A stretch of DNA of 64,000 bases from Streptosporangiaceae bacterium (GTDB lineage Bacteria > Actinomycetota > Actinomycetes > Streptosporangiales > Streptosporangiaceae): contig JAOPYK010000249.1 of NCBI GenBank assembly GCA_025964695.1, positions 62,001 through 126,000 on the forward strand, read 5' to 3'. The notes beneath the pieces were generated by a model. It saw nothing but the letters and a program-made list of their open reading frames with translations. It had not been told where the DNA came from and did no database searches. The translations under genes were made by a program, and so were the position numbers. Below, piece after piece: positions 33,837-52,430 of the stretch (within the stretch, counting starts at the first letter, position 1; the number at the start of each line of letters is the position of its first letter).

Positions 33837-34093
33837 GTGATCTCCGTCCAAAGTCCGTTCAATCGCCACAAATATTGTCAAATAACAGCCGTTATGCAAG
33901 TGGAAACGGGGACGGGGGTGTCGCGGGTCGCTGCCGATGCCCGGGTAAGGCCAGGCCACCCATGTCGTGCGAAGTGGGTATCGGTTCCTCGTGGGACACC
34001 TCACGTTCTTGAAAGTTTTCGGGAAGTCTGTGGATTTCTGATGCGGTTCAGCTGGGAATGTCCAGGTATCCGTGCTCGGAGGGAGAGTCCGCC

Positions 34094-35296
34094 GTGACCC
34101 GTTTGACGGTCGATGACGTGTACCAGCACAGCTACGGGGTGTGTTTCAAGACCGGTCCGCCCGGCGTCGTCGGCGCCGAGACCGAATGGCTCGTCGTCGA
34201 TCCCCGGCGTCCGGGCGCGCACGTGTCCCTGGATCGGCTTCGCGACCTGATGGACGCCGCCGGGCCGCCGCCGGCCGGCAGCCTCATCACCTACGAGCCC
34301 GGCGGCCAGCTCGAGCTCAGCTCCGCCCCGCAGCCCGGGCTCGCCGCGCTGTACGACGCGCTCTCGCTCGATCTGGCGTTCGCCCGGAAGGCGCTGGGGG
34401 ACCTCGCGCTCGCCGGGCACGGGGTCGATCCGGTACGGGCTCCCTTCATGCAGACCCGCGATCAGCGGTACCTGTGCATGAGCACCTACTTCGAGACCCA
34501 CTCGAAGGAGGGCGGGCTGCCGATGATGTGCGGGACCGCCTCCGTGCAGGTCTGCGTGGACATCGGGGCCGACTCCGCCGACGCCGTACGCCGCTGGCGG
34601 CTGGCGCACGCGCTGGGCCCGATCCTGGTCGCCGCGTTCGCGAACTCACCGTTGCGGGCCGGGCGCCGTACCGGGCTCAAGTCGACCCGGCAGGCCATCT
34701 GGAACGCCCTCGACCCAGGCCGCACGACCGCCCCCGCCGGCGCCGACCCGGCCGAGGCCTGGGCCCGCTACGCCCTGGACGCCAATGTCATGATGCGCCG
34801 CACGCCGGACGGCGGCTGGGTGGCGGACCCCGGGACGACCTTCCGGGAATGGGTGGCGACCGGCGAACCCACCGCGGAGGACCTGGACTACCACCTGTCC
34901 ACGCTGTTCCCGCCGGTGCGGCCACGCGGGTGGTACGAGCTGCGCATGATCGACGCGCTGCCCGAGCCGTACTGGCCGGTGCCCGTCGCCGTCGTCACCG
35001 CGCTGCTGGACGACCCGGTGGCCTCCCGGCTGGCGGAGGAGGCCGCCGAGCCGGTCGCCGGGCGCTGGCGGCAGGCCGCCGGGGACGCGCTGGCCGACCG
35101 GGAGCTGGCCCGCGCGGCCCGCGCGTGTTTCGAGGCCGCCCGCGCCGCGCTGCCCCGGCTCGACGCCGAACGCCTGCTCCCCCTGGTCGACGACTACTAC
35201 TCCCGCTACATCGAGCGCGGGCGCTGCCCGGCGGACGATCTCACGCTGACGCTCGCCACCGCCCCAGTCGAGGAGGATCTGTCATGGAACCACTGA
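34094..35296 (+). CDS. egtA: Glutamate-cysteine ligase EgtA
   Basis: 400 residues from the GTG at 34094, preceded by GGAGGGAGAG. Typical EgtA text includes GAETEWLVVDPRRP, YEPGGQLELSS, MMCGTASVQVCVDIG and GWYELRMIDALPE. It joins glutamate and cysteine to give gamma-glutamylcysteine, the sulfur donor for EgtB. First gene of egtABCD; egtB overlaps its end by 13 bp. A 257-bp gap with an AT-rich patch (about 33.86-33.90 kb) separates it from the divergent sigma-like gene and should carry the operon promoter. Confidence 0.93.
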   Translation: MTRLTVDDVYQHSYGVCFKTGPPGVVGAETEWLVVDPRRPGAHVSLDRLRDLMDAAGPPPAGSLITYEPGGQLELSSAPQPGLAALYDALSLDLAFARKALGDLALAGHGVDPVRAPFMQTRDQRYLCMSTYFETHSKEGGLPMMCGTASVQVCVDIGADSADAVRRWRLAHALGPILVAAFANSPLRAGRRTGLKSTRQAIWNALDPGRTTAPAGADPAEAWARYALDANVMMRRTPDGGWVADPGTTFREWVATGEPTAEDLDYHLSTLFPPVRPRGWYELRMIDALPEPYWPVPVAVVTALLDDPVASRLAEEAAEPVAGRWRQAAGDALADRELARAARACFEAARAALPRLDAERLLPLVDDYYSRYIERGRCPADDLTLTLATAPVEEDLSWNH

Positions 35297-36654
35297 CCCG
35301 GCCCGTCCCCGAAGCGGACGAGGACGCGCTCAAAGAACTGATCGCCGCGGAGCTCACAGCCGTACGGGATCGGAGCTTCGGGCTGACCACCGACGCGCTC
35401 GACGAGACGGAGCTGATCGCCCAGATCTCTCCGCTGATGTCCCCGCTCATCTGGGATCTGGCGCATGTGGGCAACTATGAGGAACTGTGGCTGCTGCGGG
35501 AGGCGGCCGGCGCCGAGCCGATGCGGCCCGAGATCGACACGCTGTACGACGCGTTCGAGCATCCGCGCGCCACCCGGCCGTCGCTGCCTCTGCTGCCGCC
35601 CCGCGAGGCCCGGACCTACATCGCGACCGTGCGGTCCAAGGTGCTCGACTCGCTGGCGTCGGTGCGCTTCCGCTCCGAGGACCCGCTGACCTCCGGCGGG
35701 TTCGTGTACGGCATGGTCGTACAGCACGAGCACCAGCACGACGAGACCATGCTCGCCACCCATCAGCTCCGCAAGGGCGGCCCCGCCCTGCTCGATCCTC
35801 CTTCCGCGGTCGCGCGGCCGGCCGGCGAAGGCTCGCATGACCACCTGGGGGAGCACCTGGGGGAGGAGGTGCTGGTCGAGGCGGGGCCGTTCGAGCTGGG
35901 CACCTCGGACGATCCGTGGGCCTACGACAACGAGCGACCCGGACACGTGGTGGACCTGCCCGGCTATTTCCTCGACACCGCACCCGTCAGCTGCGGGGAC
36001 TACCTGGCGTTCATGGCGGACGGCGGTTACGGCGACCGGCGCTGGTGGCACCCCGCGGGCTGGGAGTGGCGTAGCTCCAAGGAGGTCGAGGCGCCCGGCT
36101 TCTGGGTGCGGGACGACGGCGGTCCGGGATGGCTGCGCCGCCGCTTCGGGCGGGTCGAGGAGGTGCCTCTCGACGAACCCGTACAGCACGTCTGCTGGTA
36201 CGAGGCGGACGCGTACGCCCGGTGGGCGGGCAAACGGCTGCCCACCGAGGCCGAATGGGAGAAGGCCGCCCGCTGGGATCCCGTGGCGGCCCGGTCCCGG
36301 CGGTTCCCGTGGGGTGATTCGTACCAGGAGGGCATGGCCAACCTGGGACAGCGGATGCTGCGTCCGACGGCGGCCGGGTCGTTCCCGGCCGGTGCGTCCG
36401 CGTACGGGGTGCGGCAGCTCATGGGGGACGTCTGGGAGTGGACGTCGTCGGACTTCGACGGCTACCCCGGCTTCCGCGCCTTCCCGTACAAGGAGTACTC
36501 CGAGGCCTTCTTCGGCGGAAGCGGCGAGTACAAGGTGCTGCGCGGCGGATCGTGGGCGACCGACCCGAGCGTCTGCCGCGGAACGTTCCGCAACTGGGAT
36601 CTGCCCATCCGGCGCCAGATCTTCGCCGGTTTCCGTTGTGCGAGGTCCCTCTGA
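35284..36654 (+). CDS. egtB: Hercynine oxygenase (sulfoxide synthase) EgtB
   Basis: 456 residues, ATG at 35284 inside the end of egtA with GAGGAG upstream. The N-terminal DinB-like part gives the iron ligands: His61 (WDLAHVGNYEE) and His148/His152 (QHEHQHDE). The C-terminal half is an FGE-sulfatase domain (VEAGPFELGTSDDP, AGKRLPTEAEWEKAARWDP, LMGDVWEWTSSDF, LRGGSW). It is a non-haem iron enzyme that joins hercynine to gamma-glutamylcysteine with oxygen to form the sulfoxide. Full length and all visible ligands present. Confidence 0.95.
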   Translation: MEPLTRPVPEADEDALKELIAAELTAVRDRSFGLTTDALDETELIAQISPLMSPLIWDLAHVGNYEELWLLREAAGAEPMRPEIDTLYDAFEHPRATRPSLPLLPPREARTYIATVRSKVLDSLASVRFRSEDPLTSGGFVYGMVVQHEHQHDETMLATHQLRKGGPALLDPPSAVARPAGEGSHDHLGEHLGEEVLVEAGPFELGTSDDPWAYDNERPGHVVDLPGYFLDTAPVSCGDYLAFMADGGYGDRRWWHPAGWEWRSSKEVEAPGFWVRDDGGPGWLRRRFGRVEEVPLDEPVQHVCWYEADAYARWAGKRLPTEAEWEKAARWDPVAARSRRFPWGDSYQEGMANLGQRMLRPTAAGSFPAGASAYGVRQLMGDVWEWTSSDFDGYPGFRAFPYKEYSEAFFGGSGEYKVLRGGSWATDPSVCRGTFRNWDLPIRRQIFAGFRCARSL

Positions 36655-38460: not shown

Positions 38461-38970
38461 TCAGGCCACGTCGTCCATGGGGCTCAGCTCATCGGCGTAG
38501 CTGACCGAGACGCGCCGGAGCACCCCGTCGTCCATCGAGTACTGGCCGAGCCGCTGGAGCGGCGGGGAGTAGGCGTGGATGGAGACGCTCTGGTCGGCGG
38601 CGCCGACGAGCCGGTGGATGTGGTCGGGGCCGAAGTAGAAGGAGGTCCCGGCCGGCATGATCGTCTCCAGATGGGCGCCGCCGATCCGTGGGTTGGACTC
38701 CTTCAGCGCGCCGCTGATCACGTGTACCGCGCCCGAGGAGACGTCGTGGTCATGCCACCCGGTGTCGTTGCCGGGGATCCAGCACAACAGCCACACATCG
38801 ACGTGCTCGTCCCTGTGAAGCGAGACATAGTGCCGGCGCCCGTCCGGGAAGGCGATCTGGTCGCGCCACTCGGCCGGCTTTCCGGCCAGGTCCTCGACGA
38901 GGTCACGGAGCTCGCGCTTGTCGAGTGGCCGGCCGGACGACGATTGGAGCTGGGGGGCGGCTGAAGACAT
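38461..38970 (-). CDS. Cysteine dioxygenase-like thiol dioxygenase
   Basis: 169 residues of the cupin cysteine-dioxygenase family. Metal ligands are His73 and His75 (GWHDHDVSS) and a distal His at 117 or 119 (GPDHIHRL). RRHYVSLHRDEHVDVWLL and the terminal YSPPL are family text. Known members oxidise cysteine or 3-mercaptopropionate to sulfinates. It is convergent with egtD (6 bp apart) and divergent from a LacI regulator, with a triplicated 13-bp operator-like repeat between them. It could balance the cysteine used by EgtA, or act on another thiol from ergothioneine breakdown; the second idea is speculative. Confidence 0.85.
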   Translation of the reverse strand: MSSAAPQLQSSSGRPLDKRELRDLVEDLAGKPAEWRDQIAFPDGRRHYVSLHRDEHVDVWLLCWIPGNDTGWHDHDVSSGAVHVISGALKESNPRIGGAHLETIMPAGTSFYFGPDHIHRLVGAADQSVSIHAYSPPLQRLGQYSMDDGVLRRVSVSYADELSPMDDVA

Positions 38971-39013: not shown

Positions 39014-39052
39014 CTGAACCGGTTAACTGAACCGTTTCAGTGAACCGGTTAA
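39014..39052. promoter_or_regulatory. Triplicated 13-bp LacI-type operator
   Basis: Three head-to-tail 13-mers, CTGAACCGGTTAA, CTGAACCGTTTCA and GTGAACCGGTTAA. Each has a near-palindromic AACCGGTT-like core centred on CpG, as in LacI-family sites, with centres exactly 13 bp apart. They lie between the thiol dioxygenase and LacI genes. Confidence 0.7.
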
Positions 39053-39158: not shown

Positions 39159-40166
39159 GTGGCACAGCGCAGCAAGCGAACGACCATTCGTGAGGTGGCG
39201 AAGGCGACGGGCCTTTCCCCAGCGGCCGTTTCCTACGCGCTGCGCGGCATCCAGACCTCGGAGGTCACCCAGGAGCGGGTGCGCAAGGCCGCCGCGGAGC
39301 TGGGTTACGAGGCGCATCCCATCGCCCGGGCCCTGGCCAGCGGCCGCAGTGGCATGGTCGGGCTGCTCTGCGGCTCGCTGGAGGACTTCTGGCAGCAGTC
39401 GCTGGCGGTCGGCATCGGCCGGGGCCTGCTCGCCCAGGACCGCTACGCCATCATCCTCGACGCGGCCGAGGATCCGGAGCGGGAGCTGGCGCTCGCCCGG
39501 CAGCTGCGCGACCAGCGGGTCGACGGGCTGATCGTGCAGCCGCTGGACCCGGCCGCGGAGTTCTGGGCCGAGCTGGCCGAGACGCTGCCGGTGGTCTCGA
39601 TCGGCGACGTGCTGCGGGGCGGCACCGCGCAGGGTGAGGTGGTCTTCGACAACCGGCACGGTGTCACGCTGGCGCTCGAGCACCTGCACGACTTCGGTCA
39701 TCGCCGGGTCACAGTGCTCACCCCGACCCGCGACAGCACCCCCGACCGGCCGGCCGACGTCTACGTCAACGCCGAGGCGGCCCGGCTCGGGCTCGAGGTG
39801 GCCGTGGTCGCCTCGTCCCAGGCACTCCGCGCCGCCACGGACACCGCGCTGACGGTGCTGTCCGATCCGGACCGGCCCACCGCAGTGTTCTGCTTCTCCG
39901 ACTCGATCGCCTACGGGGTGTACGCGGCCACCCGCGAGCTCGGCCTGGCCGTGCCCGGAGACGTGTCGGTAGCGGGCTACGACGACCATCCGATGTCGGC
40001 GCTGCTCACGCCCCCGCTGACCAGCGTGGACTGGAACATCGACGGCATCGTCGCGGCGGCCGTCAAGGTGATGCTGGGATCCATCGACGACCGGCCGGGC
40101 CGCAAGCGGGTGGTCTGTGATCCGCGCCTGCGCGTCCGCGCCTCCACCGGCCCACCGGCCAAATGA
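39159..40166 (+). CDS. LacI-family transcriptional regulator
   Basis: 335 residues. The N-terminal HTH (TTIREVAKATGLSPAAVSYAL) includes the hinge region ARALASGRSGMVGLL, followed by a periplasmic-binding-protein-like sensor (VDGLIVQPLDP, DNRHGVTLALEHL, DHPMSALLTPPLTSVDWN). Starts at GTG. It is divergent from the thiol dioxygenase, with the three 13-bp repeats between, and is followed by the minus-strand lyase paralogue. A matching half-site (catccggttcag, 41903-41914) occurs upstream of the ABC importer, suggesting control of that unit. Effector unknown. Confidence 0.88.
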   Translation: MAQRSKRTTIREVAKATGLSPAAVSYALRGIQTSEVTQERVRKAAAELGYEAHPIARALASGRSGMVGLLCGSLEDFWQQSLAVGIGRGLLAQDRYAIILDAAEDPERELALARQLRDQRVDGLIVQPLDPAAEFWAELAETLPVVSIGDVLRGGTAQGEVVFDNRHGVTLALEHLHDFGHRRVTVLTPTRDSTPDRPADVYVNAEAARLGLEVAVVASSQALRAATDTALTVLSDPDRPTAVFCFSDSIAYGVYAATRELGLAVPGDVSVAGYDDHPMSALLTPPLTSVDWNIDGIVAAAVKVMLGSIDDRPGRKRVVCDPRLRVRASTGPPAK

Positions 40167-40225: not shown

Positions 40226-40313
40226 GCGCCGCTGGTAGGACCGTGCCGCTGGTCAGGACGGTGCCGCTGGTAAGGACGGTGCGTGCTGGTAGGACGGCGC
40301 CGCTGGTCAGGAC
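40226..40313. repeat. Five imperfect 18-bp tandem repeats
   Basis: Unit gtgccgctggtcaggacg occurs about five times (17-18 bp period) between the LacI stop and the end of the lyase gene; the last unit contains the lyase stop. Not a coding repeat. Possibly a transcript-end or slippage structure. Confidence 0.65.
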
Positions 40314-41740
40314 TGCGAGAAGGCCTCGTGGTCGAGCAGGTCGGACGCGATCGCGATATCGGTGTCCAGCGGGCGGTCCTCCATCCGCGGGTCGAGGATC
40401 CCGGCGGCCACGTCGAAGGCCGCCCGCAGTGCCCCGCCGGACGGAGCCCGGCCCTGCATGCGCAGCGCCCGCACGCTCGCGACCAGCTCACAGGCGAGTG
40501 CGATGCGGTAGGCGGCGAGGGCGTCCATGGTCGCTCGTGCCGACTGGGTGGAGAACCCCGCATGATCCTCGACTCCCCGGGACAGCACCGCGCTGCCCAG
40601 CGCGGCGGGGGACGCGAACCGCCGGATGTCGGCGATCGCGGAGTGCGCGACGTACTCCAGGATCATCACCCCCGAGCTGGACTCGCTCGCCGCCAGGAAG
40701 GGATGCAGGCCGGTGAAGGAGGGCTCGACGAGCGTGCCGAGCCGGGCGGCGGACAGCGCGACGGTCTGGAACAGCGCCGCCCGGGCCGCGTCCAGCGCCA
40801 GCCCGACATAGGCGGTGTGGAAGTTGCCGTTGTGCCATGCCGCCCGGCTCGCCACATCGATCAGCGGATTTTCGGCGGCGGCGTTGATCTCCCGCCGCAC
40901 GACGTCGTCGGCGTAGGCCCCGACGTCGAAGGCGGGACCGTGGACCTGCGGAAACGCCCGATAGCCGTAGGGATCCTGGATGCGGCCGGGGGACGGCCGC
41001 TCATAGACCAGGAGCCCTCGCATGTCCGCGGCGACCTTCTGCTGTCCCGGATGCGGGCATGCCTCGTGCACGACCGGCGCATAGGGCTCGGCCGACCCGT
41101 GCACCGCGAGCAGCGACAGTGCCGTGATCACGGTGGACGCGGCGAGCATCCGCCGCAGATCGAACACCGCCAGCGCGGACTCGCCCAGCGTCGCGGCGTT
41201 GGAACTGATGAACGCCAGCGCGTCTGAGGAGCGCAGCGTGAAACCGGGGCCGCGTTCGCCGCCGATCCAGGGCCGTTCTCCCAGCAGGCACAGCGCCGTC
41301 GAGGCGAGGGCGGTGAGGTCTCCGGTGCCGATCGCGCCGTACATCGGGATGGGAGGCGTCAGCCGCAGGTTGAGCACGTCGGCCAGTACGCCGAGCACTC
41401 CCGGGTCGACCCCGGAGCCGCCCGCCGCAAGTTGGTTCACCCGGACGGCCAGCATGGCGCGGACTATCTCCTGGCCGAGCAGCGGCCCGGCGCCGGCGGC
41501 GTGACTGCGCAGCAGGCGCAGCCCGTGCGCGTCGGCGTCGTCCCATTCGACGTCCACAAGGCGGTTGGCGCCGACCCCGGTGGTCCGGCCGTAAACGGCC
41601 TGGGTCTCGGTCACCTCGCGAGCGACCTCCCAGGCGGCCCGGGCCCGCTTGACCCCGCTGTCGGCGACCATCACGCCGACGTCCTCCTCGCGGGCGATCC
41701 GGGCGACATCGGTACAGGTGAGAGCCGTGCCGTCGATCAC
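40307..41740 (-). CDS. Histidine ammonia-lyase paralogue lacking the canonical MIO triad
   Basis: 477 residues from the GTG at 41740, the first standard start. An ATC at 41755 preceded by GGGAGGG at 8-base spacing is a possible alternative. The fold is the aromatic amino-acid lyase family: Tyr50 in VYGRTTGVGANR, QDPYGYRAFPQ, NGNFHTAY and VEDHAGFST are all aligned in order. The Ala-Ser-Gly that makes the MIO cofactor (usual text GSVGASGDL) is replaced by GAIGTGDL, with residues Gly138-Thr139-Gly140 and one residue fewer. So normal MIO formation is doubtful. Ergothionases, which remove trimethylamine from ergothioneine, are a candidate activity. Divergent from the importer operon. Confidence 0.75.
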   Translation of the reverse strand: MIDGTALTCTDVARIAREEDVGVMVADSGVKRARAAWEVAREVTETQAVYGRTTGVGANRLVDVEWDDADAHGLRLLRSHAAGAGPLLGQEIVRAMLAVRVNQLAAGGSGVDPGVLGVLADVLNLRLTPPIPMYGAIGTGDLTALASTALCLLGERPWIGGERGPGFTLRSSDALAFISSNAATLGESALAVFDLRRMLAASTVITALSLLAVHGSAEPYAPVVHEACPHPGQQKVAADMRGLLVYERPSPGRIQDPYGYRAFPQVHGPAFDVGAYADDVVRREINAAAENPLIDVASRAAWHNGNFHTAYVGLALDAARAALFQTVALSAARLGTLVEPSFTGLHPFLAASESSSGVMILEYVAHSAIADIRRFASPAALGSAVLSRGVEDHAGFSTQSARATMDALAAYRIALACELVASVRALRMQGRAPSGGALRAAFDVAAGILDPRMEDRPLDTDIAIASDLLDHEAFSQS

Positions 41741-41953
41741 GATTCGGTTGCTGATGGCCGGATCCCTCCCACATTTCTCACTATTTCAGTCTGTATGGTT
41801 CACAATAAATGTCCGGGGCGGAGGGGCCGCACGGGGCTTTGTGACGGGCTTGTATCCGTTGGGTACGGTCGCTCACGAGATGTTCCATGTTCAATATCCT
41901 GACATCCGGTTCAGACACAGGCGTACACCCGCGCCGGCGAGGATGTGAGTTGC

Positions 41954-43087
41954 TTGATCACCTTTGACGGCGTCACGAAGCGTTTTCCCGATGGCACCGT
42001 CGCCCTCGACGACGTCAGTCTGGAGTGCCCGACCGGACAGATCACGGTCTTCGTGGGAACCTCGGGCGGGGGCAAGACCACCGCGCTGCGCACCATCAAC
42101 CGGATGGTCGATCCCACGGCCGGGCGGGTGCTCATCGACGGCCAGGACGTCCGCGAGAAGAAGCCCGCGGAGCTGCGGCGGAACATCGGCTATGTCATCC
42201 AGCAGGCCGGGCTGTTCCCGCATCGCACGATCATCGACAACGTGGCCACCGTGCCCTATCTGCTGGGCTGGGACAAGAAGAAGGCCCGGACGCGCGCCAT
42301 GGAGCTGATGGAGCGGGTCGGCCTGGAGCCGGGCATGGCCAAGCGCTATCCCTTCCAGCTGTCCGGCGGTCAGCAGCAGCGCGTCGGAGTGGCCAGGGCC
42401 CTCGCCGCCGACCCGCCGATCATGCTCATGGACGAGCCGTTCAGCGCCGTGGACCCGGTGGTCCGGGCCGAGCTCCAGGCGGAGTTCCTGCGGCTGCAGG
42501 CCGAGCTGGAGAAGACGATCGTCTTCGTCACCCATGACATCGACGAGGCCATCAAGCTGGGCGACCGCATCGCCGTCTTCCAGACCGGCGGCAGGCTGGT
42601 GCAGTTCGACACTCCGGAGAACCTGCTCGCCCGCCCGGCCGGCGACTTCGTGGCCGGCTTCATCGGGCACGATCGGGGCATCCGCCGGCTGTCCTTCGTC
42701 AAGGCGGCCGAGCTGGTCCTGCGCGACCACGAGATCCTTCCGCTGACGTCCACGGTGGCCGACGCGCGGGCGACCGGGCAGGACTGGGTGCTCGTGGTCG
42801 AGGACGGCAGGCGCCCGGTGGGCTGGGCGCGCGTCGCGGGCCTGCCCGCGGACGGGACCCTTTCCGACGCCGAGCTCGACCCGCTCGGTCACACCTTCGG
42901 CATCGACGGGGACTCGGCCCGGGCCGTCCTGGACGCGGCGATCCTGTCGCCCACCGGGCTGGCGGTCGGCATCGACGGTGACGGCGGCGTCGTCGGGGTG
43001 GCCGGCCAGCAGGACCTGGTCACCGCGCTGGCCGCGGCCGGCACCGGGACCGGCGCGGGGGCGGATGCCGGCGGTGACACCCGGTGA
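41954..43087 (+). CDS. ABC transporter ATPase, glycine-betaine/OpuC type
   Basis: 377 residues from a TTG (family members begin ITFDGVTKRF), with GAGGA 10 bases upstream; a GTG at 41945 would add three residues but sits 1 base from that site. Walker A is GTSGGGKTT, signature LSGGQQQRVGVARAL, Walker B IMLMDEP, H-loop FVTHDIDEA. The C-terminus (from about 250) carries CBS-like sequence (LPLTSTVADARATGQDW), as in ProV/OpuCA ATPases. It is the first of four genes for a quaternary-amine type importer. The lyase paralogue is divergent, 213 bp away. Confidence 0.87.
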   Translation: MITFDGVTKRFPDGTVALDDVSLECPTGQITVFVGTSGGGKTTALRTINRMVDPTAGRVLIDGQDVREKKPAELRRNIGYVIQQAGLFPHRTIIDNVATVPYLLGWDKKKARTRAMELMERVGLEPGMAKRYPFQLSGGQQQRVGVARALAADPPIMLMDEPFSAVDPVVRAELQAEFLRLQAELEKTIVFVTHDIDEAIKLGDRIAVFQTGGRLVQFDTPENLLARPAGDFVAGFIGHDRGIRRLSFVKAAELVLRDHEILPLTSTVADARATGQDWVLVVEDGRRPVGWARVAGLPADGTLSDAELDPLGHTFGIDGDSARAVLDAAILSPTGLAVGIDGDGGVVGVAGQQDLVTALAAAGTGTGAGADAGGDTR

Positions 43088-43770
43088 TCGCCGCACTCGC
43101 CGCCGCCACGGGCGGTGAGCCGCTGATTCGGTGGAACTGGATCGGCGACCACACCGGCGAGCTCACCCATTACACGCTCATCCACCTGCGGCTGGCCCTG
43201 CTGCCGGTGCTGTTCGGGCTGATCATCTCGCTGCCGCTCGGCGTGGGCTGCCGCCGCTGGCAGTGGTCGTACCCGATCGTCCTGACCGGTGCCAACGCGC
43301 TGTACGCCATCCCGTCGCTGGCGCTGTTCATGGTGTTCGTTCAGTACACCGGACTCAATCCGTCGACGGTCATGATCCCGCTCACGCTCTACACGCTGTC
43401 GGTGCTGGTGCCCAACGTCGTGGACGGACTGGGCTCGGTCTCCGCGCCGGTCCGGCAGGCCGCCACCGCGATCGGGTTCGGGCCGTTGCGCCAGCTGATC
43501 CAGGTCGAGCTGCCCATCGCCGTACCCGTGGTGATCGCCGGGGTCAGGGTGGCGGCGGTGTCGTCGATCAGCCTGGTCGCGGTAGGGCAGCTCATCGGCC
43601 AGGGCGGCCTCGGCTTCTACATCATCAGGGGCCTGCAGCTCGACTTCCCCACTCCGATCATCGTCGCGACCGTACTGATCGTCATCCTCGCGCTCGCCAC
43701 CGACGCGCTCCTGGTGCTGGTGCAGTGGTTGCTCACGCCGTGGTCGCGGGCCCGGGGGAGGAGCACATGA
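43084..43770 (+). CDS. ABC transporter permease, OpuC/ProW type (first)
   Basis: 228 residues with about five or six membrane helices. GTG start overlaps the ATPase stop by 4 bp. The EAA-like loop is AATAIGFGPLRQLIQVELPIA, followed by VIAGVRVAAVSSISLVAVGQLIG. This is the BPD_transp_1 fold of betaine/choline importers. Confidence 0.88.
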   Translation: MIAALAAATGGEPLIRWNWIGDHTGELTHYTLIHLRLALLPVLFGLIISLPLGVGCRRWQWSYPIVLTGANALYAIPSLALFMVFVQYTGLNPSTVMIPLTLYTLSVLVPNVVDGLGSVSAPVRQAATAIGFGPLRQLIQVELPIAVPVVIAGVRVAAVSSISLVAVGQLIGQGGLGFYIIRGLQLDFPTPIIVATVLIVILALATDALLVLVQWLLTPWSRARGRST

Positions 43771-44456
43771 ACGGCTTCCTGAACCAGATGAAGCTCGTCG
43801 GGGAGTGGCTGACCGCGTCGGCGCAGTGGCACGGCGACGACGGCATCCCGCACCGGCTCCTGGAGCACCTGACCTACAGCGGGCTCTCGTTGCTGTTCGC
43901 CGCTCTGGTGGGGCTGGGTCTCGGGCTGGTCGTCGGCCACACGGGGCGAGGCGGGTTCGCCGTCGCCAGCCTGGCGAACCTGGCGCGGGCGGTGCCCACC
44001 CTCGGCCTGGTCGTCCTCATCGTCACCGTCGTCGGCCTCAGCGTGACGCCGGTCCTGATCGCGTTGATCGCGCTGGCCGTTCCGGCCATCCTGGTCAACA
44101 CCTACGAGGGCATCCGCGGTGTCGACGCCGACGCCAAGGACGCCGCACGCGGTATGGGCATGACCGGCTGGGGAGTGCTCTGGCGGGTCGAGGTCCCGAT
44201 CGCGCTGCCATTGATCCTGCTCGGCCTGCGCACGGCGGCGATCCAAATCGTGGCCACCGCCACGATCGCCGCCGTACCCGGCCTGGGCGGGCTGGGGCGT
44301 TACATCGTGGACGGCCTAGCCCGTAACGACTACGAGCTCGTCATCGGGGGCACCGTCGTCATCGTCGCGCTGGCCGTCGTCGTCCAGCTGATCTTCTCGG
44401 TGCTGCGACGCCTCATCGTCTCGCCAGGGCTGCACGGCCCGGCACGCACCTCGTGA
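43767..44456 (+). CDS. ABC transporter permease, OpuC/ProW type (second)
   Basis: 229 residues. ATG overlaps the previous stop by 4 bp and has GGGGGAGGAG upstream. Helices and the EAA loop (DAARGMGMTGWGVLWRVEVPI) are clear, then LRTAAIQIVATATIAAVPGLGGLG. With the first permease it should form a heterodimeric membrane channel. Confidence 0.88.
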   Translation: MNGFLNQMKLVGEWLTASAQWHGDDGIPHRLLEHLTYSGLSLLFAALVGLGLGLVVGHTGRGGFAVASLANLARAVPTLGLVVLIVTVVGLSVTPVLIALIALAVPAILVNTYEGIRGVDADAKDAARGMGMTGWGVLWRVEVPIALPLILLGLRTAAIQIVATATIAAVPGLGGLGRYIVDGLARNDYELVIGGTVVIVALAVVVQLIFSVLRRLIVSPGLHGPARTS

Positions 44457-44485
44457 CCCCCCGGTTCCATGAGAGGAAACAAGGA

Positions 44486-45418
44486 ATGAAACGCATTGCC
44501 CGCGCTGCCGTCGTCGGCCTCACCGCCGCCCTGGCACTGACCGCCTGCGGCAGCAGCAAGAGTGACAAGAGCAGCAACCCGCTGGGCGGAGGTGCCGCCA
44601 GCAGCGGAGGCGGCACCATCACCGTGGGCTCGGCCAACTTCCCCGAGAGCGCGGCGCTGGCAGAGATCTACGCCCAGGCTCTCGAGGCCAAGGGTCTCAA
44701 GGTCAACCGCAAATTCAACATCGGCGCCCGCGAGGTGTACTACGACCAGGTCGTCAAGGGCGGCATCAGCGTCATTCCCGAGTACAACGGCGCCTTGCTG
44801 ACGACGTCGGTCGACAAGACCAGCACCGCGGCCTCGACCGACGAGGTCAACGCCGCGCTCACGGCCAAGCTGCCTGCGAGCGTGGGGATCCTCGCCTCCT
44901 CCCAGGCCGAGGACAAGGACTCGGTGACGGTCAACGCGCAGACCGCCGCCAAGTACAACCTCAAGTCGATCAGTGACCTGAAGTCCGCGGCCGGCTCCCT
45001 CACGATCGCCGGCCCGTCGGAGTTCAAGACCCGTCAGCAGGGTCTGGTCGGGCTCAAGGCCAAGTACGGCCTGGGCTTCAAGAAGTTCCAGCCGTTCGAC
45101 GCCGGAGCGCAGGCCACGCTGGTCAAGCTGCTCAAGGGCAACCAGGTCCAGGCGGCCGACCTGTTCACCACCGACCCGACCATCACGACCAACAAGTTCG
45201 TCGTGCTCGAGGACCCGCTGCACGTCTTCAGCTCGCAGAACGTCACCCCGCTGATCTACAAAGCGGCGGTGAACCAGACCGCCCAGGCGGCGCTCAACGC
45301 GGTGTCGGCCAAGCTCACCACCACCGATCTACTCGACATCATGACCAAGATCGCGATCAACAAGGCCGACCAGGAGACGGTGGCCAAGGACTGGCTGAAG
45401 AAGGCCGGCCTGGCCTGA
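44486..45418 (+). CDS. Quaternary-ammonium-type substrate-binding lipoprotein
   Basis: 310 residues from the ATG at 44486 (AAGGA upstream). Signal peptide with lipobox LTAC (Cys at about residue 22), then a Ser/Gly linker. OpuAC-type fold: ITVGSANFPESAALAEIYAQ, IGAREVYYDQVVKGGISVIPEYNG and a TDPTI region near residue 230. Relatives bind glycine betaine, choline, carnitine or, in EgtU of Streptococcus and Helicobacter, ergothioneine. Given egt and histidine-type lyase neighbours, ergothioneine or hercynine is a reasonable ligand guess; the aromatic cage cannot be mapped by eye. A strong terminator follows. Confidence 0.88.
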   Translation: MKRIARAAVVGLTAALALTACGSSKSDKSSNPLGGGAASSGGGTITVGSANFPESAALAEIYAQALEAKGLKVNRKFNIGAREVYYDQVVKGGISVIPEYNGALLTTSVDKTSTAASTDEVNAALTAKLPASVGILASSQAEDKDSVTVNAQTAAKYNLKSISDLKSAAGSLTIAGPSEFKTRQQGLVGLKAKYGLGFKKFQPFDAGAQATLVKLLKGNQVQAADLFTTDPTITTNKFVVLEDPLHVFSSQNVTPLIYKAAVNQTAQAALNAVSAKLTTTDLLDIMTKIAINKADQETVAKDWLKKAGLA

Positions 45419-45477: not shown

Positions 45478-46248
45478 TCAGCCTCGACCCGGGGCGTGGC
45501 CGCTGAGGCGTTTGGTGAGGTCGGCGGCGGCCGTACGGATCTGGACGGCGAGCTCCGCCCATGAGTCCTCGGCCCGGGTGTCCCGGCGGAACGTCACAGT
45601 GATGGCGGCCACCGGATGGCCGATGTGGTCGAAACTGCAGGCCGCGATGCTGGCCAGGCCCTCGGTGACCTGTCCGTCCTCGACCGACCATCCCCTGCGC
45701 AGGTCGCCCGCGAGCACTCGGCGCAGCTCGGTCAGCGTGCGGGGGCCGTGCCCGGTACGGTCGACGAAATGGTCGGCGCCCCGGCCCGGGAACAGCGCAC
45801 GGACCTGGGCGGCGGGCAGGTGGGCGAGCATGGAACGGCCGCTGGCGGTGAGCTGGGCGGGTAGCCGTACGCCCACGTCGGTCACCAGGGTCGGGTGGTG
45901 CGGGGGCTGCTCCTTGAGCAGATAGAGCGTCTCGGCCCCGTGCAGCACCCCGAGCTGGGCGATCTCGCCGGTCCGCTCCACCAGCCGGTGCAGCAGCGGC
46001 CGGGCCAGCCGTTCCAGGGGCCCCTGGCGCAGGTAGGCCGAGCCGATCTCGAAGGCCGCGACGCCGAGCCCCCAGCGGCGTTCCTCCGGCAGGTACGTCA
46101 CGAAACCGTCGGCCGCCATCTCGGTCAGCAGATGGTAGGTGCTGGATCTGGGCAGTTCCAGCGAACGCGCGATCGCAGAGGCCTCCAGCGGCTGCGCCGA
46201 CGAGGCCAGCAGCCGCAGCACCGCGAGGGCTCTGCGCGCGGCGGGCAC
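45478..46248 (-). CDS. IclR-family regulator of the hut operon
   Basis: 256 residues from the GTG at 46248, which has GGAGGGG 8 bases upstream; longer in-frame starts at 46257 and 46275 run into the palindrome at 46266. Winged HTH: ARRALAVLRLLASSAQPLEA, then SLELPRSSTYHLLTEMAADG. The C-terminal sensor contains GVLHGAETLYLLKEQ, LTASGRSMLAHLP and IAACSFDHIGHPVAAITV. It is divergent from hutH, with two GTCTCG-N4-CGAGAC palindromes in between, so it probably controls hut and itself. The effector might be urocanate or histidine by analogy; not shown by sequence. Confidence 0.85.
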   Translation of the reverse strand: MPAARRALAVLRLLASSAQPLEASAIARSLELPRSSTYHLLTEMAADGFVTYLPEERRWGLGVAAFEIGSAYLRQGPLERLARPLLHRLVERTGEIAQLGVLHGAETLYLLKEQPPHHPTLVTDVGVRLPAQLTASGRSMLAHLPAAQVRALFPGRGADHFVDRTGHGPRTLTELRRVLAGDLRRGWSVEDGQVTEGLASIAACSFDHIGHPVAAITVTFRRDTRAEDSWAELAVQIRTAAADLTKRLSGHAPGRG

Positions 46249-46265
46249 CTGACTCACCCCTCCAT

Positions 46266-46283
46266 CGTCTCGCATCCGAGACG
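46266..46283. promoter_or_regulatory. IclR operator candidate 1
   Basis: Perfect 7-4-7 inverted repeat CGTCTCGcatcCGAGACG, just upstream of the IclR start. Confidence 0.72.
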
Positions 46284-46319
46284 GCCCCCCCGGGGGTCCA
46301 GCCGGCCGGCCCGCGCAAT

Positions 46320-46337
46320 TGTCTCGCATACGAGACA
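46320..46337. promoter_or_regulatory. IclR operator candidate 2 (hutH side)
   Basis: Perfect 7-4-7 inverted repeat TGTCTCGcataCGAGACA, sharing the GTCTCG-N4-CGAGAC core with the first site; centres are 54 bp apart, and it lies 66 bp before the hutH start. Confidence 0.75.
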
Positions 46338-46402
46338 CAATCACGATCGCGCCGGTCCGCAACGGCGCCTGCCGGGTTCCAATAGCGGGTATGGAGATCC
46401 GT

Positions 46403-47971
46403 ATGGGGGGCGCAGCCGTGTCCGTTCAGGGGGGACCGCTCGTCGAGGTCGGCCCGGAGCCGCTGACCATCGAGCAGGTGGTGGCGGTGGCCAGGGACGG
46501 CGCGCAGATCGGGCTGACCGGCGACGCGCTGGTGAGCATGGCCAGGTCACGGTCGTACATCGAGGAGCTGGCCCGGCAGGCGACCCCGGTCTACGGCATC
46601 TCGACCGGTTTCGGCGCGCTGGCCACCCGGCACATCGATCCCGCGCTACGGGGCCGCCTTCAGGTGTCGCTGATTCGCTCGCACGCCGCGGGCAGCGGGC
46701 CCGAGGTCGAGCGTGAGGTGGTCCGCGCGCTGATGCTGCTGCGGCTGCGGACGCTCGCCACCGGGCACACCGGGATCAACCCCGGCACGGCGATGACCCT
46801 GGCGTCGCTGCTCAATGCCGGCATCACCCCGGTGGTCCACGAATACGGCAGCCTGGGCTGCTCCGGCGACCTGGCGCCGCTCGCGCACTGTGCGCTGGCG
46901 CTGCTGGGAGAGGGGCCCGTCCGGGACTGGACCGGTGAGCTGATGCCCGCCGCCCAGGCCCTGCGTGCCGCGGACATCGAGCCGGTCACGCTGGCCGCCA
47001 AGGAAGGGCTGGCGCTGATCAACGGCACCGACGGCATGCTGGGCATGCTGGTGCTGGCCATGGCCGACCTGCGCGAGCTGCTCAAGGTCGCCGACGTGGC
47101 CACCGCGATGAGCGTCGAGGCGCTGCTCGGCACCGACCGGGTCTTCGCCGCCGACCTCCAGGAGCTTCGACCGCACCCGGGGCAGGCCGCGAGCGCCGCC
47201 AACCTGCGGGCGCTGCTCGAAGACTCGGCGATCATGGAGTCGCACCGCGGACCCGACTGCACCCGGGTCCAGGACGCGTACTCGCTGCGCTGCTCGCCAC
47301 AGGTCAGCGGGGCGGCCCGGGACACCCTCGCACACGCCCAGCTGGTGGCCGGCCGGGAGCTGGCGAGCGCGGTGGACAACCCCGTGGTCCTGGACGACGG
47401 GCGGGTGGAGTCCAACGGCAACTTCCACGGCGCGCCCGTGGCGTACGTGCTGGACTTCCTGGCCATCCCGGTGGCCGACGTGGCGTCCATGTCGGAGCGG
47501 CGCAGCGACCGGATGCTCGACAAGGCCCGCTCGCACGGGCTGCCGCCCTTCCTCGCCGACGATCCCGGCGTCGACTCCGGCCACATGATCGCGCAGTACA
47601 CCCAGGCCGGGCTGGTGTCCGAGCTCAAGCGGATCGCCAACCCGGCCAGCGTCGACTCCATCCCTAGCTCGGCCATGCAGGAGGATCATGTCTCCATGGG
47701 CTGGAGCGCGGCCCGCAAGCTGCGCCGGGCGGTCGAAGGCCTGACCCAGGTGCTCGCCATCGAGATCCTGACGGCCGCCCGGGCCCTGGACATGCGCGCT
47801 CCGCTGCGGCCGGGACCGGCGACCGGCGCCGTTGTCTCCGCCCTCCGCTCCCGGGTCCCGGGCCCCGGGCCCGACAGGTTCCTGGCCCCTGAGATCGCCG
47901 CCGCCGTCGATCTCGTCCGCGACGGCTCTTTGGTGGCCGCCGCCGAATCCGTGACCGGCCCTCTGCTGTAG
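46403..47971 (+). CDS. hutH: Histidine ammonia-lyase
   Basis: 522 residues from the ATG at 46403, which has GGAG 6 bases upstream; an ATG at 46391 is in frame. All family pieces are present: VYGISTGFGALA, the MIO triad as Cys153-Ser154-Gly155 (SLGCSGDLAPLAH), LALINGTDGML, QDAYSLRCSPQ, SNGNFHG and QEDHVSMGW. The Cys-Ser-Gly form of the triad is a known variant of Ala-Ser-Gly. It converts histidine to urocanate and ammonia. First gene of the hut operon; it contrasts with the triad-less paralogue at 40.3 kb. Confidence 0.93.
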   Translation: MGGAAVSVQGGPLVEVGPEPLTIEQVVAVARDGAQIGLTGDALVSMARSRSYIEELARQATPVYGISTGFGALATRHIDPALRGRLQVSLIRSHAAGSGPEVEREVVRALMLLRLRTLATGHTGINPGTAMTLASLLNAGITPVVHEYGSLGCSGDLAPLAHCALALLGEGPVRDWTGELMPAAQALRAADIEPVTLAAKEGLALINGTDGMLGMLVLAMADLRELLKVADVATAMSVEALLGTDRVFAADLQELRPHPGQAASAANLRALLEDSAIMESHRGPDCTRVQDAYSLRCSPQVSGAARDTLAHAQLVAGRELASAVDNPVVLDDGRVESNGNFHGAPVAYVLDFLAIPVADVASMSERRSDRMLDKARSHGLPPFLADDPGVDSGHMIAQYTQAGLVSELKRIANPASVDSIPSSAMQEDHVSMGWSAARKLRRAVEGLTQVLAIEILTAARALDMRAPLRPGPATGAVVSALRSRVPGPGPDRFLAPEIAAAVDLVRDGSLVAAAESVTGPLL

Positions 47972-47995: not shown

Positions 47996-49660
47996 ATGAC
48001 GTCTCAAGGTCCCCGTCCCGTACGCGCGCCGCGCGGCTCCCGGCTCACCACCAAGGGGTGGCAGCAGGAGGGCGCCCTGCGCATGCTCATGAACAATCTC
48101 GACCCCGAGGTCGCCGAGCACCCCGACGAGCTGATCGTCTATGGGGGCTCCGGCAAGGCCGCCCGCAACTGGGCCTCCTTCGACGGCATCGTGCGGTCCC
48201 TGCGGGACCTGGAGGCCGACGAGACCCTGCTCGTCCAGTCCGGCAAGCCGGTCGGCATCTTCCGTACCCATGAATGGGCGCCCCGGGTGCTCATCGCCAA
48301 CTCCAACCTGGTGCCGCAGTGGGCCAACTGGGAGGAGTTCCGCCGGCTGGAGGCGCTCGGCCTGACCATGTACGGCCAGATGACCGCCGGGTCGTGGATC
48401 TACATCGGTACCCAGGGCATCCTGCAGGGCACCTACGAGACGTTCGCCGCCGTGGCCGCGAAAAGGTTCGGCGGCACGCTGGCCGGGACCATCACGCTCA
48501 CCGCGGGGCTGGGCGGCATGGGCGGCGCGCAGCCGCTGGCCGTCACGATGAACGACGGGGTGGTGATCGTCGTCGAGTGTGATCCTTCCCGGATCGACCG
48601 CCGGGTCGCGCACCGCTACTGCGACGTGCGGGTCGACTCGCTCGACGAGGCACTGCGGCTGGCAGAGGAGGCCAAGGCCGCCCGCAGGCCGCTGTCGATC
48701 GGGCTCCTCGGCAACGCCACCGAGGTCGTACCGGAACTGCTGCGCCGCGGTGCGCCGATCGACATCGTCACCGACCAGACCTCCGCGCACGACCCCCTGA
48801 TGTACCTCCCGCGGGGAATGGCCTTCGAGGATCTGGCGGCCGCGCGGGAGAAGGACCCCGCGGGGCTCACCGCCCGTGCCCGCGAATCCATGGCCGTCCA
48901 CGTCGAGGCCATGGTCGGCTTCCAGGATGGCGGGGCCGAGGTCTTCGACTACGGCAACTCGATCCGCGGCGAGGCCGAACTGGCCGGCTACCGGCGCGCG
49001 TTCGACTTCCCCGGCTTCGTGCCCGCCTACATCAGGCCGCTGTTCTCCGAGGGCAGAGGCCCGTTCCGGTGGGCCGCGCTGTCCGGTGATCCCCAGGACA
49101 TCGCCCGCACCGACCAGGCCATCCTCGACCTCTTCCCGGACAACGAGCCCCTCGCCCGGTGGATCCGGATGGCCCGCGAGAAGGTGCACTTCCAGGGGCT
49201 GCCGTCGCGGATCTGCTGGCTGGGGTACGGCGAGCGGGACAAGGCCGGAGAGCTCTTCAACGACCTGGTGGCGCGCGGTGAGATCAGCGCGCCGATCGTG
49301 CTGGGCCGTGACCATCTGGACTGCGGGAGCGTGGCGAGCCCGTACCGCGAGACCGAGGGCATGGCCGACGGCTCCGACGCGATCGCCGACTGGCCGCTGC
49401 TCAACGCGCTGGTCAACACCGCCTCCGGCGCCTCCTGGGTGTCGATCCACCACGGTGGGGGAGTCGGCATCGGCCGGTCCATCCACGCCGGTCAGGTCTG
49501 TGTCGCCGACGGCAGCGCGCTGGCCGGGGAGAAGCTCAACCGGGTGCTCACCAACGACCCCGGGATGGGCGTCATCCGGCATGTCGACGCGGGCTACGAC
49601 CGGGCCGCCGAGGTCGCCGCCGAGCGCGGGGTCCGCATCCCCATGACCGAGACCGGCTGA
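47996..49660 (+). CDS. hutU: Urocanate hydratase
   Basis: 554 residues. Typical text: [64 protein letters not shown] and [15 protein letters not shown]. It binds NAD tightly and hydrates urocanate to imidazolone propionate. It follows hutH by 24 bp, so they are co-transcribed. Length matches the family. Confidence 0.95.
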
Positions 49661-49780: not shown

Positions 49781-51073
49781 ATGAGTTTCGAGGAGATGTG
49801 GGCGGCGCTGCTGCCGATCGGGCGGGACGCGGCCACCGGCGGCTACCACCGGTTCGCCTGGACGCCGGCCGAACTGGACTGCCGTGCATGGTTCCTCGGC
49901 GAGGCGGCCGGCCGGGGGATGGAGCTCGAGCAGGACCGCAACGGCAACCTGTTCGCCTGGTGGAACCCGGCCGGCGCCGCCCCCGGGCTCCCGGGCGGGG
50001 CCGGAGTCGTGACGGGCAGTCATCTGGACTCGGTGCCGGGCGGGGGAGCGTTCGACGGCCCGCTCGGGGTGGTCAGCGCGCTGGCGGCGATCGACCTGAT
50101 GCGCGCCAGGGATGTACGGCCCGTGCGCGCGATCGGGGTCGCCGTGTTCGCGGAGGAGGAGGGCGCCCGCTTCGGGGTGGCCTGCCTCGGCTCCCGGCTG
50201 CTGACCGGCGCGATCGACCCGCGACGGGCCCGCGACCTGCGTGATGCCGGCGGGATCGGCTTCGGCGAGGCACTGGCCCGGGACGACGGCGGCTGGGCGG
50301 CCGGATCCACGCTGCGGCCCGGCGGGCTCGACCCGGCGGCGATCGGTAGGGACGAGGAGCTGCTGAGCCGCATCGGCTGCTTCGTGGAGCTCCATGTCGA
50401 GCAGGGCCGGGCCATGGACGCCCCGGTCGGGGTGGCGAGCGCGATCTGGCCACACGGCCGGTGGCGGTTCGACTTCGCCGGTCACGGCAACCACGCGGGG
50501 ACGACCCGGCTGGGCGACCGGCGCGACCCGATGCTGCCGTTCGCCCACACCGTGATCGAGGCCCGGGCCGCCGCGGAGCGGCACGACAGCCTCGCCACCG
50601 TCGGCAAGGTCACCGTGGTGCCGGGCGGGGTCAACGCGATCCCGTCCAGGGTGACGGCCTGGCTGGACGCCCGCGGCCCCGACGACCGGGCAGTGCGCAG
50701 GACGGTCGAGGAGATCGGCCGGGCCGCCGAGCTGGCCGCCGAGGATCACGGCGTCACGGTGCGACTCGGCGAGGAGTCCTACACGGCCGTGGTGGCGTTC
50801 AACACGGCCCTGCGCGACCGGCTCGCCGACGTGATCGCAAGCGCCGGATCCGCCCGCCCGCCGGTGCTGCCGACCGGGGCGGGTCACGACGCCGGCATTC
50901 TGTCCGCCCACCTCCCTACGGCGATGCTGTTCGTCCGGAACCCCACCGGGGTGTCCCACGCGCCGGAAGAGCATGCCGAGGTGGCGGACTGCCTCGCGGG
51001 CGTCGAGGCGCTGGCGGCCGTACTACAGGATCTGGCCTGCGATGAAAGCCCGGAACAGGCGCATTATGGGTGA
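49781..51073 (+). CDS. M20-family amidohydrolase (allantoate/N-carbamoyl hydrolase type) in the hut operon
   Basis: 430 residues. Metal-site text: TGSHLDSVPGGGAFDGPLGV, AEEEGARFGVACLGSR, ELHVEQGRAMD, GHGNHAGTTRLGDRRDP and the final VSHAPEEHAEV. It belongs with allantoate amidohydrolases and N-carbamoyl-amino-acid hydrolases. No purine genes are near. It sits between hutU and hutF, the same place as in the Streptomyces hut cluster as I recall it. Since hutG is missing, it may be the N-formylglutamate deformylase of the pathway. hutF overlaps its end. Confidence 0.85.
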   Translation: MSFEEMWAALLPIGRDAATGGYHRFAWTPAELDCRAWFLGEAAGRGMELEQDRNGNLFAWWNPAGAAPGLPGGAGVVTGSHLDSVPGGGAFDGPLGVVSALAAIDLMRARDVRPVRAIGVAVFAEEEGARFGVACLGSRLLTGAIDPRRARDLRDAGGIGFGEALARDDGGWAAGSTLRPGGLDPAAIGRDEELLSRIGCFVELHVEQGRAMDAPVGVASAIWPHGRWRFDFAGHGNHAGTTRLGDRRDPMLPFAHTVIEARAAAERHDSLATVGKVTVVPGGVNAIPSRVTAWLDARGPDDRAVRRTVEEIGRAAELAAEDHGVTVRLGEESYTAVVAFNTALRDRLADVIASAGSARPPVLPTGAGHDAGILSAHLPTAMLFVRNPTGVSHAPEEHAEVADCLAGVEALAAVLQDLACDESPEQAHYG

Positions 51074-52430
51074 TATGAAGTGGCACGCCGAGCTTGCGTG
51101 GCTGGGAGACGAGGTCGCCGCCGATGTGCTCCTGGAGGCGAACGGCGAGCGGTTCACGGCCGTCACCTCCGGCGTTCCGGCCCCCGAGGGCGCCACCAGA
51201 CTTGCCGGGCTGACCCTGCCCGGCCTGGCCGACGCCCACTCGCACGCCTTCCACCGGGCCCTGCGCGGCCGCGCCCAGCTGGGCAGCGGGACCTTCTGGA
51301 CCTGGCGCGAGCAGATGTACGGGGTGGCCGCCCGGCTCGATCCGGACTCGTACCACGCCCTGGCCCGGGCCGTGTACGCGGAGATGGCGCTGGCGGGGAT
51401 CAGTTGCGTGGGCGAGTTCCACTACCTCCATCACGGCCCGGACGGCGTGCCCTACGACAACCCGAACGCCATGGGCGAGGCGCTGATCGCGGCCGCCGCC
51501 GATGCCGGGATCAGGATCACCCTCCTGGACGCCTGCTACCTCGCCGGCGGCATCGGACGGCCCCTCGAAGGCCCGCAGCTGCGGTTCGGGGACGGTTCGG
51601 CGGGCGACTGGGCGCGGCGGCTGGGGACGCTGTACGACGACGTTCACAAAGCCGGCCGTCCGCACGCCCGGATCGGAGCGGCGATCCACTCGGTGCGGGC
51701 CGTACCGCGTGAGCAGATCCACGCCGTCGCCACCTGGGCCTTTGAGCGCGGCACACCGCTTCACGTCCACCTGTCCGAGCAGCCGGCCGAGAACGAGGCC
51801 TGCCTGCGGGCGTACGGAATGAGCCCGACCAGGCTGCTCGCCGAGTGCGGCGCGCTCGGTGCCCGGACGGTCGCCGTGCACGCCACTCATCTTTCCGACG
51901 ACGACATCGGGCTGCTCGGCGCCACCATGACCGGCGTCTGCATGTGCCCGACCACCGAGCGCGACCTCGCCGACGGCATCGGGCCCGCCGGCCGGCTGCG
52001 GGACGCCGGGGCGCCCATCTGCCTGGGCTCCGATCAGCACGCGGTCATCGATCTGTTCGAGGAGGCCAGGGCCGTCGAGTTGGACGAACGGCTGCTCACC
52101 CGGCGGCGCGGCCACTGGCACGCGGGGGAACTGCTGGCCGCCGCCACCTCCAACGGCCACTACGGCCTGGGCTGGCCCGAGGCGGGCCGGCTCGAGCCGG
52201 GCGCCTACGCCGACCTGGTCACCGTGTCGCTGGACTCCGTACGGCTGGCGGGGACGAGACGGGAATTCGCCGCCGAGTCGGCCGTCTTCGCCGCCACCGC
52301 GGCGGACGTGCGGCACGTGGTCGTGTCGGGCCGTCAGATCGTCCGTACCGGCGACCATCTGCTCATCGACGACGTTCCCGAGGCCCTGGCCACCGCGATC
52401 GACGCCGTGACGGGGGTATCACATGAGTGA
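51066..52430 (+). CDS. hutF: Formimidoylglutamate deiminase
   Basis: 454 residues from the ATG at 51066; an ATG at 51075 (MKWHAELAWLG) is the alternative. Amidohydrolase-superfamily metal motif DAHSHAFHRALRG, GEFHYLHHGPDG, HVHLSEQPAENEACL and GSDQHAVIDLFEEAR match HutF. It deaminates N-formimino-glutamate to N-formyl-glutamate and ammonia, which defines the deiminase branch of histidine breakdown known from pseudomonads and streptomycetes. Overlaps the M20 gene by 8 bp. Confidence 0.92.
   Translation: MGDMKWHAELAWLGDEVAADVLLEANGERFTAVTSGVPAPEGATRLAGLTLPGLADAHSHAFHRALRGRAQLGSGTFWTWREQMYGVAARLDPDSYHALARAVYAEMALAGISCVGEFHYLHHGPDGVPYDNPNAMGEALIAAAADAGIRITLLDACYLAGGIGRPLEGPQLRFGDGSAGDWARRLGTLYDDVHKAGRPHARIGAAIHSVRAVPREQIHAVATWAFERGTPLHVHLSEQPAENEACLRAYGMSPTRLLAECGALGARTVAVHATHLSDDDIGLLGATMTGVCMCPTTERDLADGIGPAGRLRDAGAPICLGSDQHAVIDLFEEARAVELDERLLTRRRGHWHAGELLAAATSNGHYGLGWPEAGRLEPGAYADLVTVSLDSVRLAGTRREFAAESAVFAATAADVRHVVVSGRQIVRTGDHLLIDDVPEALATAIDAVTGVSHE

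Follow-up and report, generated by a model that had tools for sequence, protein, structure and literature searches.

A Gly-Thr-Gly paralogue of histidine ammonia-lyase beside ergothioneine genes is a candidate cofactor-free hercynine trimethylamine-lyase

Introduction

What does a relative of histidine ammonia-lyase (HAL) do when it has the fold and most of the active site of the family but not the tripeptide from which the 4-methylideneimidazole-5-one (MIO) cofactor is made? The question is raised by a 64,000-nt stretch of DNA (the window) from a soil actinobacterium of the Streptosporangiaceae, where such a gene stands between ergothioneine (egt) and histidine utilisation (hut) genes. A first-pass annotation of this DNA had noted GAIGTGDL where GSVGASGDL is expected, one residue shorter, and had suggested that the enzyme may work without the cofactor, as reported for ergothionase. 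We use HALx as a working name for the encoded protein. Its gene and the codons in question are:

40307-41740, minus strand: HALx, 477 aa, GTG start, Pfam PF00221 at E=1e-109; paralogue in the aromatic amino acid lyase family without MIO, with hercynine trimethylamine-lyase as its proposed function
41321-41329, minus strand: codons GGC ACC GGA for G138-T139-G140, which occupy the place of the MIO tripeptide; T139 is invariant in 42 aligned orthologues

Our analysis makes it moderately likely that HALx is an MIO-independent lyase that would release trimethylamine from hercynine (N-alpha-trimethyl-histidine, histidine betaine) and leave urocanate.

Results

HALx lacks the MIO triad

The open reading frame has G+C contents of 0.75, 0.52 and 0.90 at the three codon positions and is therefore a genuine gene. 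The Lyase_aromatic profile (PF00221) and the predicted fold both place the protein in the aromatic lyase superfamily, whereas its score against the hutH equivalog TIGR01225 is 281.6 bits, against a cut-off of 539.15. A Shine-Dalgarno-like GGGAGG run (window 41740-41770) lies about 24 bases from the GTG, and an in-frame ATC is nearer to the run, so that the start codon is uncertain. Two further members of the family are found in the source genome, the ordinary HutH and a third, PAL/TAL-like protein on contig C113 that keeps A-S-G.

In MIO enzymes the motif reads G-S-x-G-(A/C)-S-G-D-L, and the triad is defined in PMC9002059. When aligned with the HutH of the same window (GSLGCSGDL) and with P. 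putida HAL (GSVGASGDL; 1b8f), residues 135-142 of HALx read GAIG-TGDL, which bears out the shortening by one residue: the canonical triad is absent and Thr139 stands in place of the MIO-forming Ser. Asn195 of HAL, the residue that supports MIO and has been found essential in the G. kaustophilus enzyme (PMC11432326), is Ser179 in HALx and in 42 of 42 orthologues. G-T-G itself is kept in 99 of 100 orthologous loci (98 by pattern, L087 by alignment), the remaining one, L130, having G-T-S, and this rules out an origin by chance, sequencing error or frameshift. Across the 42 aligned orthologues no change is seen at G138, T139, D141 or L142, and G140 is almost invariant; an Arthrobacter plasmid member reads GTAD.

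The rest of the active site is retained. The family pieces listed in the first-pass annotation are all present (Tyr Y50, QD-x-Y at Q255-Y258, NFH at 306-308, ED-H at E391-H393), and HALx shares with HAL the fold and the equivalents of Tyr53, His83, Gln277, Tyr/Phe280, Arg283, Phe329 and Glu414, the catalytic Tyr53, His83, Arg283 and Glu414 corresponding to Y50, H80, R261 and E391. Y50, H80, Q255, R261, E391, T139 and E362 are invariant in the 42 orthologues, down to 52% identity; the constancy of the first five argues that HALx is not a dead enzyme.

Orthologues were first met within the same family and order. A scan for relatives found 565 related stretches, of which the best 80 were kept, and extended the group to Actinomadura, Thermomonospora, Actinoallomurus, Nonomuraea, Lentzea, Amycolatopsis, Prauserella, Saccharothrix, Streptomyces, Dactylosporangium, Rhodococcus and others. 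Judged by these sequences the Gly-Thr-Gly group is a large actinobacterial subfamily and no local oddity, and hundreds of such genes, going by this one scan, are close enough to histidine ammonia-lyase to carry its name.

HALx shares its deletion with ergothionase and forms a separate clade

We aligned the T. denticola ergothionase (6s7j), which is reported to be free of MIO (PMC13405746), with HALs, HALx and plasmid-borne relatives of ergothionase. At the MIO site GSVGASGDL of HAL is matched by SSIG-EGDI in ergothionase, by GSVG-AADI, GSVG-EADI and GSVG-QADM in the relatives from Polaromonas, Paracoccus and S. meliloti, and by GAIG-TGDL in HALx, so that HALx, the T. denticola enzyme and its three plasmid relatives have a one-residue deletion in common and no Ser at this site. 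HALx and ergothionase (T. denticola, PDB 6s7j/6s7q; Burkholderia sp. HME13) further share the aromatic-lyase fold (Z score 41.8, 24% identity), the change of Asn195 to Ser, a GVGxN(K/R) segment and QDP. Because it has no Ser, is one residue short, has lost the supporting Asn and carries the same deletion as an MIO-less enzyme, HALx is very probably without MIO, and the earlier suggestion of cofactor-free working is very likely right.

The two groups are not the same, however. HALx has GTG where ergothionases have GEG, AA, EA or QA, and Glu362 and Tyr363 where ergothionase has its IQK lysine region; it is also linked to dioxygenase and hut genes. Tyr363 stands in 42 of 42 HALx sequences at the lysine of the IQK/FGTIQK segment of the T. 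denticola, Polaromonas and Paracoccus proteins, a lysine that we take to be catalytic in the T. denticola enzyme. In the tree HALx, with 17 rows, and the ergothionases, with 4, are separate clades, each with 100/100 support, and the placement of HALx directly within the ergothionase clade is thus unsupported; a joint clade of all MIO-less proteins is neither established nor rejected (approximately unbiased (AU) test, p=0.446). The ergothionase parallel drawn at first pass was thus a good lead as to the deletion and less so as to identity, given the separate clade, the Tyr in place of the lysine and a neighbourhood that points to hercynine. The best reading is that HALx works like ergothionase from outside its clade.

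The AlphaFold2 (AF2) model of HALx has a mean predicted local distance difference test (pLDDT) value of 91.2 and a predicted template-modelling score (pTM) of 0.92, the weakest blocks being residues 381-390 (mean 53) and then the GTG block 131-140 (mean 69). The overlay on HAL and ergothionase proposed at first pass returned the common fold but did not separate them: at Z 41-42 neither of the two, nor tyrosine aminomutase, stands out, and the fold is therefore silent on the substrate.

Other MIO-less lyases were met on proteobacterial replicons. On a Paracoccus saliphilus plasmid (L139:5908-7596) an ergothionase relative with GEAD comes right after hutI-hutH-hutG-hutU, a parallel case of an MIO-less lyase joined to hut genes. 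The S. meliloti pSymA relative (L140:5923-7563; GQADM), annotated hutH, is also without the IQK lysine; beside it lie genes labelled ABC transporter and dimethylsulfoniopropionate lyase. Further MIO-less aromatic lyase relatives (GAADL, GAADI) are found on plasmids at L036:7980-9503, L141:2980-4503 and L138:5968-7587, annotated as aromatic amino acid (ammonia-)lyases and lying near ornithine cyclodeaminase-family genes; they are possibly a further group.

Genomic context links HALx to ergothioneine breakdown and to urocanase

The genes around HALx run in the order egtA, egtB, egtC, egtD, thiol dioxygenase, LacI regulator, HALx, a four-gene ATP-binding cassette (ABC) transporter, IclR regulator, hutH, hutU and the remaining hut genes:

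34058-35296, plus strand: egtA of ergothioneine biosynthesis, recognised from its sequence and from the order of the operon; neighbours HALx in relatives
35284-36654, plus strand: egtB, open reading frame of 456 aa
36654-37406, plus strand: egtC, open reading frame of 250 aa
37492-38454, plus strand: egtD, open reading frame for the hercynine-forming methyltransferase; neighbour in related loci
38461-38970, minus strand: ergothioneine dioxygenase by homology (thiol dioxygenase, CDO fold), 64-67% identical to PDB 8qfl-8qfr
39159-40166, plus strand: LacI-family regulator (PF00356/PF13377), 66-92% identical in most orthologous clusters, beside HALx and dioxygenase
41945-43087, plus strand: ABC transporter ATPase of betaine/proline/choline (ProV) type; divergent from HALx in many genera
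43084-43770, plus strand: ABC permease 1 (PF00528)
43767-44456, plus strand: ABC permease 2, reading frame checked; resembles permeases of related clusters
44453-45418, plus strand: substrate-binding protein of the OpuAC family; the nearest solved structures include EgtUC, Lmo1422 and proteins of OpuA/ProX type
45478-46362, minus strand: IclR-family regulator (PF01614) beside hutH
46319-47971, plus strand: hutH, genuine MIO histidine ammonia-lyase (GSLGCSGDL), 661 bits to TIGR01225 and above its cut-off
47996-49660, plus strand: hutU (PF01175/PF17391/PF17392), sole urocanase found in the source genome
49781-53663, plus strand: remaining hut operon, with an M20 amidohydrolase (49781-51073), Amidohydro_1 (50973-52430) and a HutI-like protein (52497-53663)

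In both model and sequence the thiol dioxygenase resembles the seven PDB entries that bear the title 'Ergothioneine dioxygenase from Thermocatellispora tengchongensis'. Identity to them is 64-67% and Z is 23-25, where ordinary cysteine dioxygenases reach about 20% and Z 15-16, and this homology identifies it as an ergothioneine dioxygenase. The binding protein of the transporter resembles EgtUC (E about 1e-18) as well as Lmo1422 (1.6e-20), in keeping with the EgtU/OpuA-type quaternary-amine transporters; here the ATPase, the two permeases and the binding protein are separate genes.

HALx and the dioxygenase occur together. Of 151 genomes of the order, 48 have both genes and 71 have neither, HALx alone occurs in 9 and the dioxygenase alone in 23; the odds ratio is 16 and p=3.5e-13, a value that overstates independence as the genomes are related. 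In 42 of the 48 the two genes lie 12 kb or less apart. Around HALx in the 80 named loci the recurring neighbours are the ABC ATPase, with 45 occurrences among 78 loci, then the binding protein (40), LacI (37), the dioxygenase (23), egtD (19), an amidohydrolase (19), hutH (11) and hutU (9). HALx is also present, frequently together with the transporter, in many genomes outside the order that carry only distant thiol dioxygenases and no true ergothioneine dioxygenase.

The amidohydrolase, which has distant similarity to ACMSD decarboxylase, sits in relatives between LacI and the dioxygenase. It was seen for example at L044:11605-12522, L043:7111-8088 and L059:12714-13616, with no Pfam match, weak ACMSD similarity and a tie to dioxygenase and HALx, and is likely the desulfinase of ergothioneine sulfinic acid.

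Most genomes with HALx have one urocanase only, which makes urocanate a more likely product than thiourocanate. In two of them (G033 and G032) hutU adjoins HALx, apart from hutH, and is the sole urocanase; in S. lydicus (G061) the single urocanase is about 7 kb from HALx.

Discussion

A proposed route from ergothioneine to glutamate

Nalivaiko, Vasseur and Seebeck reportedly described in 2024 an actinobacterial pathway in which a dioxygenase makes ergothioneine sulfinic acid and a metal-dependent desulfinase converts it to hercynine and SO2; to our knowledge the step from hercynine to urocanate is not part of that work. The dioxygenase near HALx is homologous to that of this pathway (8qfl-8qfr), the ACMSD-like amidohydrolase occurs in the clusters of relatives, and HALx would add the next step. 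In our proposal the neighbouring dioxygenase would oxidise ergothioneine to the sulfinic acid, which would lose SO2, either non-enzymatically or through a desulfinase that depends on a metal and is probably the ACMSD-like amidohydrolase of relatives, to give hercynine. HALx would then eliminate trimethylamine by acid/base chemistry in which Y50, H80, R261 and E391 may take part, and HutU with the remaining hut operon would carry urocanate on to glutamate. Hercynine or ergothioneine may also be imported by the divergent betaine-type transporter. As a leaving group trimethylamine is far superior to ammonia, and the electrophilic MIO would therefore not be needed for such substrates, a reasoning supported by ergothionase.

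We favour hercynine as the substrate because the dioxygenase route reportedly ends there, because several genomes have hutU beside HALx and away from hutH, the gene being the sole urocanase in G033, G032, S. lydicus and the source genome, and because HALx without the dioxygenase, often with the transporter, fits the use of an imported betaine. There is perhaps an even chance that HALx is the founding member of a family of cofactor-free hercynine trimethylamine-lyases, joining ergothioneine turnover to histidine utilisation in actinobacteria that produce ergothioneine and also break it down, and that Thr139 has taken on a new role in catalysis or binding. If so, the aerobic route from ergothioneine to glutamate would be complete in actinobacteria, there would be a microbial source of trimethylamine besides the known ergothionases, and MIO would have been lost a second, perhaps independent, time in a family defined by it. 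In the open literature we found no description of a hercynine lyase, an ergothioneine desulfinase or thiourocanate enzymes; an earlier published assignment is possible. Poorly annotated or divergent ergothionase homologues are reported to be missed (PMC13405746).

Several observations weigh against this reading. The desulfinase-like amidohydrolase gave no match in the source genome, in a search that recovers it in the control genome G066, and it is also missing from several Actinomadura; no enzyme is thus identified here for the step from the sulfinic acid to hercynine. One genome with HALx (G002, an assembly of 610 contigs) has no urocanase match, and hutU is present in nearly all genomes of the order, which makes its co-occurrence with HALx uninformative. 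The AF2 model is a monomer, and a HAL-type active site needs three subunits. A LacI operator at the HALx/transporter promoter is unconvincing, with 2 of 45 loci having one at up to two mismatches against 0.4 expected. Finally, the substrate of ergothionase is likewise a trimethylammonium betaine, and HALx could therefore act on ergothioneine.

This last point leads to the reading of HALx as an actinobacterial ergothionase, forming thiourocanate and trimethylamine from ergothioneine (or its sulfonate) in a branch parallel to the dioxygenase route. The deletion, the Asn-to-Ser change, GVGxN(K/R) and QDP shared with the T. denticola enzyme would fit, as would the adjoining egt genes, the EgtU/OpuAC-kind transporter and the AU test, which does not reject one MIO-less clade. 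We nevertheless think it rather unlikely, since HALx has a fully supported clade of its own outside the ergothionases and an invariant Tyr363 at the IQK lysine, since mostly a single ordinary urocanase is present, and since such an activity would be redundant with a co-occurring dioxygenase that removes the same substrate. Quite unlikely in our estimate is a substrate unrelated to ergothioneine, some other methylated histidine or a betaine resembling histidine, which the ABC transporter would import and from which HALx would remove the amine: this would account for the many genomes outside the order in which HALx, often with the transporter, is accompanied only by distant thiol dioxygenases, and for hutU beside HALx in some of them, but not for the strong linkage to dioxygenase and egt genes within the order.

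The absence of the triad admits two other explanations. HALx might make an MIO-like cofactor from Gly-Thr-Gly and be an isoenzyme of histidine ammonia-lyase, as the HAL fold and most active-site residues are kept and a Gly in first and a Thr in second place could in principle cyclise; the deleted residue, the lost Asn, the score far below the hutH cut-off and an ordinary HutH 5 kb away in the source genome make this very improbable. That HALx lost its activity together with the cofactor motif and serves in regulation or structure instead is hardly credible given Y50, H80, R261, E391, T139 and E362, unchanged across the aligned orthologues. Hercynine trimethylamine-lyase remains the function that we propose for HALx.

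Candidate operator sites

Six palindrome matches were found in the window against 1.33 expected, among them:

39015-39052, no strand: three tandem palindromic TGAACCGGTTCA-like sites, 13 bp apart, between the dioxygenase and LacI genes; the triple array recurs in relatives
34039-34050, no strand: one TGATGCGGTTCA site upstream of egtA, where relatives also have single sites

The array is probably a LacI operator of the dioxygenase and LacI promoters, and ergothioneine synthesis and oxidative breakdown are probably under common LacI control. HALx and its transporter have no clear copies of the palindrome and are therefore probably under other control. In genera without the LacI gene (L095 and other loci) an RpiR/SIS-type regulator adjoins HALx or its transporter.
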